From contig JAGASK010000037.1 in NCBI GenBank assembly GCA_017621815.1, forward strand, positions 1-47,394: a stretch of 47,394 nt of DNA, given 5' to 3'. The notes under the pieces are model-generated. The model was given only the letters and a program-made list of their open reading frames with translations, had not been told where the DNA came from and made no database searches. Made by a program: the position numbers and the translations under genes. Each line of letters opens with the position of its first letter. Positions within the stretch are counted from its first letter, which is position 1. Origin of the DNA: Lachnospiraceae bacterium. Lineage in GTDB: Bacteria > Bacillota > Clostridia > Lachnospirales > Lachnospiraceae. Of the stretch, positions 40,556-47,394 are shown piece after piece.

Positions 40556-42337
40556 TCAATTTTTTATTTTTTTAATATAGCACTTTGCAAGAGCTTCTGA
40601 CAAATTATCATCCGAATAAATCTTATCAAAATCACTAACAGAAAGAGTAGTAATCTGTTCTCCGTTCCAAAGAGCCTTCTCACTTGCTTCGTATGTTTGA
40701 CGATCCACCTTTTCTCCCGCAATTTCACTTACATAACCGGTATTTTCATCACGGATGATGTCTGTAACATTCACGTAATACTCATAACTAAAATCAGCAT
40801 CGGAATACTCTTCTTCCACATAATTATAAACAGCATGCAGCATTTCTATATTTGCATTGGACGAAGTGCACGTCAAAGTATCAAAATCCCATATATCCAT
40901 CCTGGACATCTTATCATTTACATTATCTATTATATCCGTTTCATTATCATATGTTGAAAAATTATAAATATAATAGTAATCGCAATAAACCATACCCCTT
41001 CTTTCTGCATAACTGAAAGGAGCAACGTAGCCATAAAAATCATCCATTGTATTCACTCCGGGCGATAGAAGAACTGCTTCCTCATTTTTGTACGTATACA
41101 AATAATCTCTTCGATTACAATGATCATCATAATCCAAATCAGTGCACCCATAACTTAATAACATTTCCGGGATTTCATCATCATTAAGATATATGAAACA
41201 AACATTGACATAATATCGTTCCGGCTCCTCATAAATTTCACTATTCGTTTTAAAATACTGATTCAAAATCCCTTCATAGGCTGACAGCCATGGCTGAGAT
41301 ATAATAGTCTCATCCACTTTCATGTCCGTATCCAGAGTTACAATTCTTTCTCTTTCCACATATTCTATCTCCGGCCAATCGCTTCTGATTCCTCTGTTTA
41401 TCTCATCTTTTATTCTCTGTCTGCAATATTCTACTTTGATTTGAAAATCTATTAGCTCTAAAAGCTGCTCATCGCTTAACTCATGCTCCGGGAAATAATA
41501 AGTACAGTTGCTGCTGCAAAAGGCAATTCCTTCTCCCTCATAATCATTTACACTCTGTATAATTGATATTGGATGTTCCGGTAACTTACCACTATTTTTA
41601 TAAAGCATCTTAAGTGCTTTTCTTCTGCCCAGTTCATCAAAGGTCAACTCCCTGCTGAAAAAACTTGTCTCAGTATTTGCAGAATAATAATTTATATAGA
41701 TTTCATCAACTTCCGTCATGGACATTTGATCCAGATAATTGACATAATAAAGCGGGTTGCTGGCTTTAACATAGGCTTCATAATCAACATACCTTTCTAA
41801 CAAATTAAATACAACCAGTTGAAGCAATTCTTCATCTGACATTTCATTTTCCGGCATGTATAAAATACCGTCTTCCGTAGAAAAAGCAATTCCCTGCCCC
41901 ATGTAAGCATCCTTAGATGAAATAACTATAGCCTCTCCGGATGGTTCTGCCATATCCCTGCAATATAAATCAAACAATTCACTAAAACGCTTCTCCTCCT
42001 CTTCTGATAATGCTCTCGACATACGCTTCCGGTCATACTGAAAAACATTTTCATATAAATCAATGATCTCTTCGTCCTTCATATTCCTCATTTTTTCCAT
42101 ATGGCTTATATACGCTTTCACGGACAAAACAGTAGAGCCTGATAATATAAACAGCACTCCAATTACAATCGCTGCTTTTGATAAGGTATTGTACTTTTTT
42201 CGTTTAATAAACCCGTTTTTCTTTTTGCTTCTGTTTCTTTCCATTTTAATCGTATCAATAGCATTCTGATAACCGGCTGATACAACATCTGAAATCTGCA
42301 CATTTTCGCACATATTTATATATTCATCTATTCTCAT
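40556..42337 (-). CDS. Membrane-bound putative anti-sigma partner with tandem duplication
   Basis: The 593-residue product has a cytoplasmic N-terminus of about 50 residues ending in a lysine/arginine-rich stretch, one membrane helix at about 53-76, and a large extracytoplasmic region. That region contains two copies of a unit of about 105 residues (about 85-189 and 206-309, for example MGQGIAFST and EGEGIAFCS), then a C-terminal domain with VCFIYLNDDEIPEMLLSYG. Its ATG overlaps the stop of the ECF sigma gene by four bases, the standard arrangement for an anti-sigma factor. No zinc-binding anti-sigma motif is seen, so the role rests on position and topology. What it senses is unknown. Confidence 0.72.
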   Translation of the reverse strand: MRIDEYINMCENVQISDVVSAGYQNAIDTIKMERNRSKKKNGFIKRKKYNTLSKAAIVIGVLFILSGSTVLSVKAYISHMEKMRNMKDEEIIDLYENVFQYDRKRMSRALSEEEEKRFSELFDLYCRDMAEPSGEAIVISSKDAYMGQGIAFSTEDGILYMPENEMSDEELLQLVVFNLLERYVDYEAYVKASNPLYYVNYLDQMSMTEVDEIYINYYSANTETSFFSRELTFDELGRRKALKMLYKNSGKLPEHPISIIQSVNDYEGEGIAFCSSNCTYYFPEHELSDEQLLELIDFQIKVEYCRQRIKDEINRGIRSDWPEIEYVERERIVTLDTDMKVDETIISQPWLSAYEGILNQYFKTNSEIYEEPERYYVNVCFIYLNDDEIPEMLLSYGCTDLDYDDHCNRRDYLYTYKNEEAVLLSPGVNTMDDFYGYVAPFSYAERRGMVYCDYYYIYNFSTYDNETDIIDNVNDKMSRMDIWDFDTLTCTSSNANIEMLHAVYNYVEEEYSDADFSYEYYVNVTDIIRDENTGYVSEIAGEKVDRQTYEASEKALWNGEQITTLSVSDFDKIYSDDNLSEALAKCYIKKIKN

Positions 42338-42852
42338 AAATAATCCTCCCCATTATTTTTTGAATCATCACTAAGAAATTGTGCTAATTGCTTTCTTCCC
42401 CGGGTCATTCTGCTGCGCACATTCATATCTGTTATATGCAGCAGACTTGCTATTTCTTTTGTTGAAAATCCATCCACATAGTACAATTCCAAAACAATAC
42501 GATATTTCTCATTTAGATTACTCAACAACTCTTTCCATTCACTCGTAAAATAATTATCCGTGTGCGCTGTCTCCGGAATTTCATCAGTGAAAATTAATCT
42601 CTTTCTACTCCTCAAAAGATCTTTGCATTGATTAATTAAGATTCTGGTAAGCCAGGTTTGAAAATAGTCATCATTTTTTAATTGTCCAATTTTCTCCCAA
42701 CACCGCAAAACAGTTTCCTGAATTGCATCCGCAGCATCTTCTTCATTCTGCAGCATGGAGATTGCTATTCGATACATTCTTTGCAGTTGAGTTCTCATTA
42801 GCTGATCAAATGCATCCGGATTTTTATTTTTAGCTTCTTCAATAAGACTCAT
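42334..42852 (-). CDS. ECF-type RNA polymerase sigma factor
   Basis: The 172-residue protein has sigma region 2 (FDQLMRTQLQRMYRIAISML...DAIQETVLRCWEKI, residues about 14-55) and region 4 (LNEKYRIVLELYYVDGFSTK and HITDMNVRSRMTRGRKQL), with no region 1 or 3, as expected for ECF sigma factors. It directs RNA polymerase to a stress or envelope regulon. A promoter of ECF type lies upstream, which implies autoregulation. The membrane partner is encoded in an overlapping gene. Confidence 0.93.
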   Translation of the reverse strand: MSLIEEAKNKNPDAFDQLMRTQLQRMYRIAISMLQNEEDAADAIQETVLRCWEKIGQLKNDDYFQTWLTRILINQCKDLLRSRKRLIFTDEIPETAHTDNYFTSEWKELLSNLNEKYRIVLELYYVDGFSTKEIASLLHITDMNVRSRMTRGRKQLAQFLSDDSKNNGEDYL

Positions 42853-44493: not shown

Positions 44494-44604
44494 TTGTTCA
44501 CCCTTTTCATTATATCTTTATTCAAAAATTCCAATCTGCCACGCTGACAAATCGAGTAACATGTGTGCTTTTAAGTGTCTTGATATGCAAAAAACTCAGT
44601 AAAA

Positions 44605-44663
44605 AAGAAGCGCCCTTCTAAGGATAACAAGTTTTATTTTACTTGTCTACCCAGAAGAGCGCT
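44605..44663 (-). terminator. Intrinsic terminator of the 207-residue protein gene
   Basis: AGCGCCCTTCT (44609-44619) pairs with AGAAGAGCGCT (44653-44663) with one G-T pair, and an inner stem ACAAGT/ACTTGT lies at 44627-44646. On the minus strand the hairpin is followed by CTTCTTTTTT. Confidence 0.8.
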
Positions 44664-44686
44664 ATCCCATGAAGACTAACAGAAGC

Positions 44687-45310
44687 TTACTTTACCGGAT
44701 AAAATTTGCCAATGCTTCCATCATACTCAATCGAATGCATGTTTTCTCCCTCACCATATGTTACGGGAAGTGCAACGCTCATAATGTGGCTGATAACAGT
44801 CCCATCATCAACATCCTTACGAAGATAAACATCTACTTTTTCGATTGGTGTCATGTTGGCACTCTGTCCATAAGGAATGCTGATAGCATTAATCGGGTTA
44901 TTGGCAAATGCCCGTCCATTGACAGTTACATCCTGCGCAAGTCCAAAAGTGAGTAATGGGTAATCAGTCATATCATTTTTGATACCATAGGAATTTTCCT
45001 CCAAATCATTGCAGGGAGTCGCAGTACCAAAATAGCCTTTATCGAAGCCATAAACGATTTTTGTTGCAGCTTCTTTATCAGACAGCTTGTTGATAGCCGC
45101 ACCACCCTGAATTTCCGTATCGGATGCATACACGGCATAATTTTCCTGCCACTGGATGGTGTTGTGTGCAAATGGCTTGAAGGTAAGCCATGCAACCTGC
45201 TTGTCCTGATTTCCGGCGGTATGTTTCACAACTACTACCTTTTCACCAGCAGCATAAATCGTTGACAGATCACTTTCCTTAAAATCAATATTCAATTCAT
45301 AATTTGACAT
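44687..45310 (-). CDS. Unrecognised 207-residue beta-rich soluble protein
   Basis: I do not recognise a family. The protein is predicted soluble, with no signal peptide or membrane helix, and alternates hydrophobic and polar residues as in beta sandwiches (KVVVVKHTAGNQ; VAWLTFKPFAHN; ENYAVYASDTEIQGG; KVDVYLRKDVDDG). It begins 62 bases after the cysteine-peptidase-like gene. AGAGG precedes the ATG, and a catabolite-response-like site and a TATAAT lie in the gap. It ends at a strong terminator. A ligand-binding or toxin-like role is possible but speculative. Confidence 0.75.
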   Translation of the reverse strand: MSNYELNIDFKESDLSTIYAAGEKVVVVKHTAGNQDKQVAWLTFKPFAHNTIQWQENYAVYASDTEIQGGAAINKLSDKEAATKIVYGFDKGYFGTATPCNDLEENSYGIKNDMTDYPLLTFGLAQDVTVNGRAFANNPINAISIPYGQSANMTPIEKVDVYLRKDVDDGTVISHIMSVALPVTYGEGENMHSIEYDGSIGKFYPVK

Positions 45311-45339
45311 AATTTTTACCTCTCTTTTTTATTATTTTT

Positions 45340-45353
45340 TATAAGCGCTTACA
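45340..45353. promoter_or_regulatory. Candidate cre (CcpA) site
   Basis: TATAAGCGCTTACA reads TGTAAGCGCTTATA on the minus strand and departs from the cre consensus TGTAANCGNTNACA at one position. It lies just downstream of TATAAT (45357-45362), a repressing location, before the 207-residue gene. Confidence 0.45.
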
Positions 45354-45372
45354 TTTATTATAAGATGATAAT

Positions 45373-46278
45373 TCATTGAAAATCAGGCATCTCATTATTT
45401 TTTTTGAAAAAATTAACGGATTGATTCACCGTATGGAACACATAAGGACATACATTCCACTTATGAATTACCAAAGGTCCTCTTCCCCACTTAGATATAA
45501 CAAATTTTCCATTACAATCATACACAATTCCTGAATGCTCATTATTTGTAGCAGGATAGTAAATCCTTTGAAAATCAGCGGTAGCGCTATTCCCAATAAA
45601 ATGATAGCTTTCATCCATCCAATATGCCGAGGGATCATTCATCCAATAAGTGTTCCGCTTGCTATGCTCATACCAGGCAAAAGAATGACAGTTATATTTC
45701 AGTGTCGGTTCTCCCATGATAACGATTCCCTGATAAGTATCCAGCATGGCTTTGCAAAGCTCCCTTTTCCTATCCTCACTAAAATCCTCCTGACTACTTC
45801 GATCATATACAGGCACATCAGTCTCTCTAGGCGTTTGGACATTTATAAAATTTTCGTTAAATTCATCATTAGCGGGGGCGCACTCTTCCAGGAGACTTCG
45901 CATTATGTTCTTTTTTAAAAAAATTTGCCATGGATCAGAATTGGATAGTTCCTGTCCATAATTATTGAAAAAATTTTGAACAGCCATAGCACTATCATTG
46001 CGATTAAGAAATGCCTGTAAAGTCGGATTATATGTTGCAATATTTCTAATTCCGTCTGCCATGGAAGTATACAGAAAAATATTGATATTAAGCGGATAAT
46101 CCAATACCAACTCCAATAATTCTTCTGTAGGCAATTCTTGTATGATGTAATCCGGCACAGCGCACGCTTCAATTTTATCGGTGAGTGTTTCCAGGTTCTG
46201 CCATCTCATAGATGCTTGATTAACCGGATACAAATATTTGCCCATTTGAGCATTTTTAGTCCATGTTAATTCGTTCAT
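45373..46278 (-). CDS. Papain-like cysteine peptidase/amidase-like protein
   Basis: The 301-residue product has two parts. Residues about 25-120 form a helical domain (NLETLTDKIEACAVPDYIIQ; TEELLELVLDYPL) seen in other uncharacterised Firmicute proteins. The C-terminal part has YNCHSFAW (Cys197), then YWMNDPSAYWMDESY, then EHSGIVYDCNGKFV (His248) and SKWGRGPLVIH, an order resembling the Cys-His layout of NlpC/P60-like and CHAP amidases. No signal peptide is visible, so either it acts inside the cell or leaves by another route. TTGGAGG precedes the ATG. It follows the split sigma genes by 90 bases. Confidence 0.65.
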   Translation of the reverse strand: MNELTWTKNAQMGKYLYPVNQASMRWQNLETLTDKIEACAVPDYIIQELPTEELLELVLDYPLNINIFLYTSMADGIRNIATYNPTLQAFLNRNDSAMAVQNFFNNYGQELSNSDPWQIFLKKNIMRSLLEECAPANDEFNENFINVQTPRETDVPVYDRSSQEDFSEDRKRELCKAMLDTYQGIVIMGEPTLKYNCHSFAWYEHSKRNTYWMNDPSAYWMDESYHFIGNSATADFQRIYYPATNNEHSGIVYDCNGKFVISKWGRGPLVIHKWNVCPYVFHTVNQSVNFFKKNNEMPDFQ

Positions 46279-46368
46279 TTTGATCCTCCAATTATAGTTA
46301 AGTTTTATTAAGGTGAAAACAAATCTCCGGATAATCTGATTTCATAGATCTATATAAAACAGCTTAAG

Positions 46369-46593
46369 CTATGAATTTACCTTTTTATGCAGCAAAATAT
46401 ATTCCTTGTACTGATCCTTAAAATACTTTTCATTAAAACGAAAATTACGAAGACAGACAAAAAGCGCAATTTTGCATTCACTATATAAATCCATATCCAA
46501 GTGACCGTAAACGTAACTGTACTTATACAATAGCCGCTCATATTTTTGATACACAACAAGTAAATTCTCATAAGACATTTTATTTTCTGACAT
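46369..46593 (-). CDS. Small protein resembling sigma region 2 (RsoA-like)
   Basis: The 74-residue product contains YENLLVVYQKYERLLYKY (about residues 8-25) and DMDLYSECKIALFVCLRNF (about 33-51), matching the pattern of sigma-factor region 2.1-2.2, the helices that bind the beta-prime clamp of RNA polymerase. Region 2.3-2.4 is short or lost and there is no region 4. The ATG at 46593 lies 14 bases inside the end of the preceding gene, so the two are coupled. The arrangement recalls RsoA of the SigO-RsoA split sigma of Bacillus subtilis, and the orf7/orf8 pair of Tn916. Confidence 0.6.
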   Translation of the reverse strand: MSENKMSYENLLVVYQKYERLLYKYSYVYGHLDMDLYSECKIALFVCLRNFRFNEKYFKDQYKEYILLHKKVNS

Positions 46594-47002
46594 AACTTGA
46601 AATTTCCTTTCTAAGTGCCTTAAGAGCTGCAATTTTAATATCATAGACAGACTGTGGGCAGATTCCCATACAGAGCGCTATCTGCCGATCAGAATAGCCT
46701 TTTTGGAAAGATAATTTCAAGTATTGCTTTTGGCGTTCTGTCAGATGCGAAATAATATCGTCAAAATAATATTCATAGATATCTTCCTGACCACACTCCT
46801 GAATTCCTTTCTGAAAATCGGTTATGATTTCGGACTGTGTCTGTTTTGCGAAATGAATAATATATTTTTTCCGTGTTTCCTTAAGTGTTTTAGATAAATA
46901 TGCTAAAAACATATGTTCCTTAGCAAGATACAAAAACTCCTTTTCGTTGAGAGAACCTTTTTTTTCAAAATAATATTCTGTCAATGTCTGTTCCTTTTCC
47001 AT
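46580..47002 (-). CDS. Small sigma-70 region 4 protein (SigO/Orf7-like)
   Basis: The 140-residue product ends in a helix-turn-helix of sigma region 4 type: HLTERQKQYLKLSFQKGYSD, then RQIALCMGICPQSVYDIKIA and ALKALRKEI (residues about 86-133). The N-terminal 85 residues are helical, without a recognisable region 2. The ATG at 47002 follows AAAGGGG; a TTG seven codons earlier has no better site. The overlapping downstream gene supplies a region 2-like domain, so the pair may act together as one sigma factor. Likely targets are the genes directly downstream. Confidence 0.72.
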   Translation of the reverse strand: MEKEQTLTEYYFEKKGSLNEKEFLYLAKEHMFLAYLSKTLKETRKKYIIHFAKQTQSEIITDFQKGIQECGQEDIYEYYFDDIISHLTERQKQYLKLSFQKGYSDRQIALCMGICPQSVYDIKIAALKALRKEISSYVRK

Positions 47003-47102
47003 ATTTTTCCCCTTTCTCGACAATTACAGTTTCTATTACTATTTAAGAATAAAATTTTCAAAAAATAAGGTGATATAGAAAAATAGTTTTTAGATTATGC
47101 TG

Positions 47103-47216
47103 TTATACTAAAATTTCAATCAATCTTTTGCTTTCCATACGCTTCAACACTTCACTACATTTTTGTTGTTCTATATCATAAGGCTTTCCTGTCTTGAGCT
47201 TTAACTCCTTTAACAT
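47103..47216 (-). CDS. Small ORF of 37 codons upstream of the split sigma genes
   Basis: An ATG-to-stop frame encodes 37 residues beginning MLKELKLKTGKPYDIEQQKC and ending RLIEILV. It is helical and charged, reads like the C-terminal end of a larger protein, and has no good ribosome binding site; an in-frame stop lies just upstream. It may be a remnant left by insertion of the adjacent element, or a real small gene. Confidence 0.3.
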   Translation of the reverse strand: MLKELKLKTGKPYDIEQQKCSEVLKRMESKRLIEILV

Positions 47217-47260
47217 AAACTATTATTTCAATGTTCATTAAAGTGATTTCCCATGTAAAA

Positions 47261-47325
47261 AAGTGTCTTCGACACTTCAACTCCCCTGCCCCTCAATCTT
47301 GAGGGGATTAGGGATTTCTTTTTTT
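47261..47325 (+). terminator. Hairpins upstream of the IS91-like transposase
   Basis: AAGTGTC-TTC-GACACTT (47261-47277) is followed by CCCCTC-AATCTT-GAGGGG (about 47289-47306) and a run of T (47317 onward). They may block outside transcription into the element or form part of its end structure. Confidence 0.45.
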
Positions 47326-47349
47326 GCTCTTTTCCTTCATAATAGTCTT

Positions 47350-47394
47350 ATGAATGTTTTACAAAAGATTTTTAAAGACCATTTTGAAGAAATT
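47350..47394 (+). CDS. 5' end of an IS91-type transposase (cut by window edge)
   Basis: The last 45 bases encode MNVLQKIFKDHFEEI, open to the edge. This closely resembles the start of IS91-family transposases of Clostridia as I remember them (LQ-x-IF-x-DH-x-E). Such enzymes move by rolling-circle replication. Fifteen residues are too few for certainty. Confidence 0.45.
   Translation, partial: MNVLQKIFKDHFEEI

Follow-up and report, generated by a model that had tools for sequence, protein, structure and literature searches.

The window, by which we mean the whole stretch of 47,394 nucleotides analysed here, carries close to its end two small overlapping genes that open a block of four. The features of this block are as follows:

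44589..47166, no strand assigned: four-gene block, 95% identical in the Lachnospiraceae MAG L077, where it stands in a different setting
47066..47073, minus strand: TCACCTTA, candidate site upstream of the pair, 71 bases before the start codon
46580..47002, minus strand: putative large subunit, 140 aa, with a region 4 helix-turn-helix at about 77-136 and an N-terminal stretch (about 28-55) aligning with sigma region 2.3-2.4
46580..46593, minus strand: 14-base gene overlap, the 140-aa and 74-aa ORFs lying in different frames
46369..46593, minus strand: putative small subunit, 74 aa, resembling sigma region 2.1-2.2 (HTH_16/PF12645-like), with a 22-residue tail
46309..46316, minus strand: TCACCTTA, candidate site upstream of the 301-aa gene, 38 bases before the start codon
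45373..46278, minus strand: third gene, 301-aa protein, no Pfam or NCBIfam match
45361..45368, minus strand: TCATCTTA, candidate site upstream of the 207-aa gene, 58 bases before the start codon
44687..45310, minus strand: fourth gene, 207-aa protein, no Pfam, NCBIfam or PHROGs match
44589..44686, minus strand: probable terminator, a stem-loop and then a T run after the last gene, MFE -33.9 kcal/mol

The coordinates of the pair, the lengths of 140 and 74 residues and the 14-base overlap had been given in an earlier account made from the letters alone (the sequence-only reading), and all of them proved exact. Longer starts are available to both frames, a TTG at 47023 that would extend the large protein to 147 aa and an ATG at 46644 that would extend the small one to 91 aa. 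The overlap suggests that translation of the two genes is coupled, and their order, with the region 4 gene first and the small gene adjoining it, is that of the SigO-RsoA type. At a distance of 3.5 kb from the pair the window also holds a complete, ordinary ECF sigma gene (42337-42852; Sigma70_r2 E 1.8e-14), followed by the gene for a 593-aa protein without a clear family.

The region 4-type helix-turn-helix proposed for the 140-residue protein is borne out by two profile matches, both below the cut-offs of their families: Sigma70_r4 in Pfam (E 3.1e-5, 23.8 bits against 24.1) and TIGR02985 in NCBIfam (E 1.4e-8, 35.1 bits against 126.4). The AlphaFold model is confident for the region 4 part only, and a nine-row profile of large proteins matched sigma factors of the PDB at region 4 in the rows shown. 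The viral contigs yielded no relative of the 140-aa protein, and the phage collection yielded one match (E 3e-3). In PHROGs its best matches are sigma factors, while the weaker ones are transcriptional regulators and an activator. These weaker matches, and the fact that the link to sigma factors is drawn from sequence, are what speaks for an improbable alternative in which no joint sigma factor is formed, the large protein being a DNA-binding regulator that resembles region 4 and the small one a modulator that binds core polymerase.

Ordinary sigma factors grip the beta-prime clamp helices of RNA polymerase through region 2.1-2.2. The sole Pfam match of the 74-aa protein is HTH_16 (E 0.0016, 18.9 bits against a cut-off of 22), which we take to be the family of Tn916 orf8; the L077 copy scores 20.1 bits, also under the cut-off, and neither NCBIfam nor PHROGs returned a match for the 74-aa protein. 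HTH_16 overlaps Sigma70_r2 in all five complete sigma factors scanned (in L055, for example, HTH_16 lies at 47-103 and Sigma70_r2 at 64-123), and in two of these, L057 and L065, it likewise falls below its cut-off. With a profile built from 15 complete same-genome sigma factors, the protein reaches 7.1 bits, a value attained by none of 1000 shuffles (966 of which were scored); against only the 8 shortest (ECF) of the same-genome factors its score is unremarkable, being reached by 59 of 1000. An E-value of 1.2e-6 against a 12-sigma profile is flattering, since the proteins in that profile were fetched with small proteins. Residues D35, L36, Y37 and E39, invariant across the first three small proteins, are kept.

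The AlphaFold model of the small protein is a helical bundle (pLDDT 85.6) in which the 22-residue tail forms a further helix, residues 55-73. The sequence-only reading had described region 2.1-2.2 and nothing else; the resemblance to 2.1-2.2 stands, and the tail had been overlooked. As to a structural match to sigma factors, which it expected, these make up the top four Foldseek rows and 5 of 10 overall, ECF sigma factors being the best PDB matches, and none of the rows is significant (best E 5.5). A phmmer search of the PDB with the 74-aa protein found no sigma factor, and an alignment of ten small proteins found them only at E 0.03-0.12, outranked by a designed repeat protein and a glutathione transferase. 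The plasmid collection gave one weak match to the 74-aa protein (E 0.2).

The pairing of the two genes across genomes bears on whether they act together. Fifty loci in which the small ORF stands by itself were inspected (L001, L009, L011, L018-L047, L049-L052, L054, L058-L060 and L123-L131), and in 45 of them an ORF matching a region 4 profile lies immediately upstream in the same orientation. Long-frame matches (L053, L055-L057, L061-L076) are excluded from this count, as are weak matches (L002, L004-L007, L010, L012, L013) and the loci of the window itself (L003, L008, L014, L048). Two of the five misses, L046 and L127, sit at a contig edge with almost nothing visible upstream, and L040, L051 (40 aa) and L059 are true misses. 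In L027 and L039, both counted among the 45, a frameshift or stop interrupts the region 4 partner, and the small ORF is intact. The two genes do co-occur, as the sequence-only reading had anticipated, though within the window's own genus the distribution of the pair is patchy: 6 of 60 genomes match P0002 (its own included, some of the matches weak) and 4 of 37 match P0001, again with its own. Two paired loci, L009 and L011, belong to this genus; L012 and L013 show no pair in their ORF lists, and the L010 match contains stops. The window's genome holds a second pair, L001 (HTH_16 E 8.2e-27), beside ORFs that by eye resemble xis and int. In the NCBI annotation of record NZ_AP023416.1, neighbours of this kind already carry the names 'sigma-70 family RNA polymerase sigma factor' and 'helix-turn-helix domain-containing protein'. 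Three things argue against two separate regulators: the tight pairing at 45 of the 50 loci, the complementary coverage of a single sigma profile, described below, and the characterised precedent of SigO-RsoA (passages of PMC8103513 and PMC10028694).

A second alternative is that the pair is a decayed sigma factor or the remnant of a mobile element, broken in two. The setting offers some grounds for it. The last 141 bases of the contig (47254-47394) are probably the end of an IS91-family element, 88 bases from the four-gene block. This segment recurs identically over 141 bases at C17:1 and over 139 at C6:20043, and it resembles (74-84%) stretches in five records of a phage collection, four of them within about 150 bases of the record end; in the fifth (L132) an ORF overlapping the edge of the match has an IS91-type transposase zinc-binding domain (E 9e-10). 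Relatives of the HTH_16 small protein of the other same-genome pair were found in 44 plasmid records, of which 33 are typed as conjugative. Against decay, region 4 comes first, the opposite of what breakage of a sigma gene would leave, and both frames are intact in two genomes, with few changes and dN below dS (window against L077, dN/dS 0.027/0.092 for the 140-aa gene and 0.028/0.143 for the 74-aa gene). Moreover, no integrase or conjugation family was found among the 27 window proteins scanned with Pfam, in a window that ends 392 bases upstream of the pair. We regard a broken remnant as very improbable.

Region 4 reads the -35 element, and regions 2.3-2.4 read and melt the -10 element. The sequence-only reading held that the 140-residue protein has no region 2 and that, with the small part stopping before 2.4, recognition of the -10 might be altered or absent. 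Region 4 is indeed present, and the N-terminal half of the large protein aligns, marginally, with 2.3-2.4; the prediction about the -10 is probably wrong, as 2.3-2.4 probably lies on the large subunit. Along a profile of 185 positions built from 14 complete sigma factors, the window's small protein covers positions 12-62 (E 6.4e-6) and its large protein 60-181 (E 5.9e-10, each in a 25-sequence set). The alignments of 21 of 25 large partners begin at 52-77 of this profile, and those of the other four begin at 110-120, with region 4 only. With a profile of 8 same-genome ECF factors, the alignment starts at 45-67, in the 2.3-2.4 stretch, for 21 of 25 and at 89-101 for four.

N-terminal fragments of ten large partners were also compared alone with family models. 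In NCBIfam, L060 gave 9 matches, L001 gave 7 and L047 gave 1, all to sigma models; they are weak (E 0.0002-0.06) and fall at corresponding positions, for example 50-107 of 165 in TIGR02937. No sigma match was found there for the seven others, the window's among them (one unrelated match for L009, nothing for six). In Pfam only L060 matched Sigma70_r2 (E 0.077, positions 46-70 of 71), the other nine, again including the window's, giving unrelated families or nothing. We place 2.3-2.4 near positions 50-73 of TIGR02937 because positions 1-164 of that model align with residues 13-159 of the window's ECF factor, and positions 3-70 of Sigma70_r2 with its residues 20-85.

When the N-terminus of each large partner was shuffled, region 4 kept and the profile score compared, p was at or below 0.05 in 16 of 25 partners with the mixed profile, and for 12 of the 25 all 400 shuffles stayed below the score. 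The ECF profile gave this last outcome, with 300 shuffles, for 11 of 25, and with a SigH-like profile p was at or below 0.05 in only 3 of 25. The sequences in these locus sets are related, and such counts are not independent trials. For the window's own large protein the score was reached by 8 of 300 shuffles (ECF), 44 of 400 (mixed) and 58 of 300 (SigH-like), and its score of 29.7 lay barely above the highest of 45 control chimeras (29.6). The protein does align along its N-terminus with the large protein of L126, which passes the test (0 of 400). Comparison of the N-termini alone with SigH-like factors by hhalign was not significant in any of five groupings. Taken together, the profile alignments and shuffles suggest that 2.3-2.4 probably stands at the N-terminus of the large subunit, a placement well supported for many relatives and marginal for the window protein, and that the cut probably falls inside region 2 in much of the family and in the window pair too.

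The more classical reading, in which the small protein is the whole sigma 2 domain with its tail as region 2.3, and the large protein supplies only sigma 4 and uses its N-terminus as a docking helix, seems to us rather unlikely. It is consistent with the helix modelled at residues 55-73, with a small protein in L049 whose match to the 14-sigma profile extends to position 73, and with the SigO-like partners of L049, L050 and L058, which fail the N-terminal shuffle test. It also agrees with a review (PMC8103513) that assigns sigma 4 and sigma 2 to different proteins in SigO-RsoA, and the title of a 2016 paper cited there reportedly places a region 2.3-like segment in RsoA. The classical reading is harder to reconcile with the small partners of L011, L047, L052, L054 and L060, which are only 60-63 aa long and end right after 2.2, and with the sigma models matched at 2.3-2.4 by the N-terminal fragments of L060, L047 and L001. 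That the whole class of two-part sigma factors is cut at the 2.2/2.3 junction, with the -10-reading helix on the sigma 4 subunit and sigma 2 complete only when the subunits meet, we would put at slightly short of an even chance. Among open-licence papers we found no description of a cut inside region 2 in two-part sigma factors.

The window pair shares with the SigO-RsoA type a region 4 part and a region 2 part on two proteins, a likeness drawn from published descriptions of SigO and RsoA. In Bacillus subtilis, by the account of one review passage (PMC8103513), the sigma 4 part is SigO (YvrI) and the sigma 2 part is a second protein, RsoA (YvrHa); the two must cooperate, both being needed (the same passage and one in PMC10028694). 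The SigO-like relatives L049 and L058 have a YvrJ-type gene between the two, whereas the window unit lacks it and has two other genes. This small gene lies at L049:1326-1490 (Pfam E 8.2e-16) and, by eye from the ORF list, at L058:1431-1598, and its position between the region 4 and small genes links these pairs to the SigO-RsoA-YvrJ neighbourhood.

For Tn916, a table in PMC9137128 gives orf7 a length of 423 nt and the label sigma-70, and orf8 a length of 231 nt and the label helix-turn-helix, with a 4-nt overlap; 423 nt would correspond to 140 codons and a stop, as in the window's large gene. Unlike the same-genome pair L001, which by eye stands beside xis- and int-like genes, the window pair has no such neighbours among the 27 window proteins scanned with Pfam. 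Relative to the proteins of L127-L131, its small protein is missing some 12 residues close to the N-terminus as well as an insert of 9 residues. Pairs of a serine-recombinase type (L011, from the window's genus, L047 and L123) have the same order and overlapping genes, but their small proteins, of 60-63 aa, have no tail, and they lie beside a recombinase-like ORF (by eye), unlike the window pair. That setting suggests a mobile element that brings along a two-part sigma factor. A pair from the viral collection, L126 (140 aa and 56 aa), aligns over residues 18-127 of the window's large protein at 26% identity (BLAST E 5e-6 in a two-sequence comparison), and the small proteins of the two give no meaningful match (E 0.22). 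The two-part arrangement is already known, and by these comparisons the window pair is a divergent member of it, new at the level of a subgroup only. The proposal of a two-part sigma factor of a new subgroup therefore keeps its first part, through the 45 of 50 pairings and the complementary profile coverage that put a divergent pair with the SigO-RsoA and Tn916 kind, and its novelty shrinks to that of a subgroup.

The two genes behind the pair encode proteins of obscure affiliation. The 301-aa protein has one weak PHROGs match to a family of unknown function (E 0.0076) and a faint, non-significant resemblance to NlpC/P60-type peptidases (LytE in the PDB, E 0.24). In another genus the 301-aa protein has a relative at 35% and the 207-aa protein one at 50%, and matches occur in 8 and 3, respectively, of 200 family genomes, the window's own included. 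Four stretches with such relatives (L092-L095) show no pair in their ORF lists by eye; an attempt to derive the regulon from cargo function was dropped, as no pair stands beside these relatives.

All four genes are kept in L077, the RGIG9047 MAG from water deer rectum and the one relative returned by the contig scan, and dN/dS between the window and L077 is below 1 for each. The flanks of the L077 copy had no match in the window's genome, in searches run without a positive control. The shared block begins about 160 bases before the pair and ends at the strong stem-loop with its T run behind the last gene, an extent that makes it look like one transcription unit exchanged between genomes as a piece. 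A consensus terminator scan did not list the stem-loop at 44589..44686, the edges of the block showed no conspicuous long terminal repeats, and blastn of 44500-47394 against plasmids gave no match.

The motif TCAYCTTA occurs four times in the window on both strands, three of these in the three intergenic stretches of the unit, and all three sites are unchanged in L077. When the three-site motif was tested against 200 shuffles per width, none reached its score at width 8 or at width 10, 8 did so at width 9 and 22 at width 12; a cruder word test gave 0.41. The site 38 bases before the 301-aa start is too close, which argues against a plain -35 role. A position at or near the -10 would leave normal leaders; we treat the motif as a lead and not as a mapped promoter. 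Its presence before the pair and before both following genes hints at a private regulon.

The homologies, the gene order, the co-occurrence, the conserved block and the shared upstream motif can be read from the sequences themselves, and from them it is quite likely that the two genes form one sigma factor in two pieces, which probably drives its own operon and the two following genes. Coupled translation of the overlapping genes would yield both proteins and keep them in step. The 74-aa protein would anchor on the beta-prime clamp as region 2.1-2.2, and the 140-aa protein would set region 4 at the -35 and its N-terminal helix at the -10, completing sigma 2 together with the 74-aa protein. Joined on the core polymerase, the two pieces would make a working sigma factor that transcribes its own operon, including the 301-aa and 207-aa genes, and the small unit may have moved between genomes. 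Polymerase binding, mutual dependence, promoter recognition, the regulon and this movement are what we infer for such a unit.

We found few papers on two-part sigma factors, set against HTH_16 matches in 192 of 291 sampled genomes of the class (the weaker of which include frames as long as complete sigma factors); the arrangement is known but poorly mapped. The unit described here would be a minimal case: within 2.6 kb it brings together two regulators, candidate sites and two genes that are candidate targets. Should the cut fall inside region 2, the customary description of sigma 2 on one protein and sigma 4 on the other needs revising. Such a cut would also explain why both proteins are needed, and would make these pairs a compact natural AND gate, the halves of which are perhaps exchangeable.
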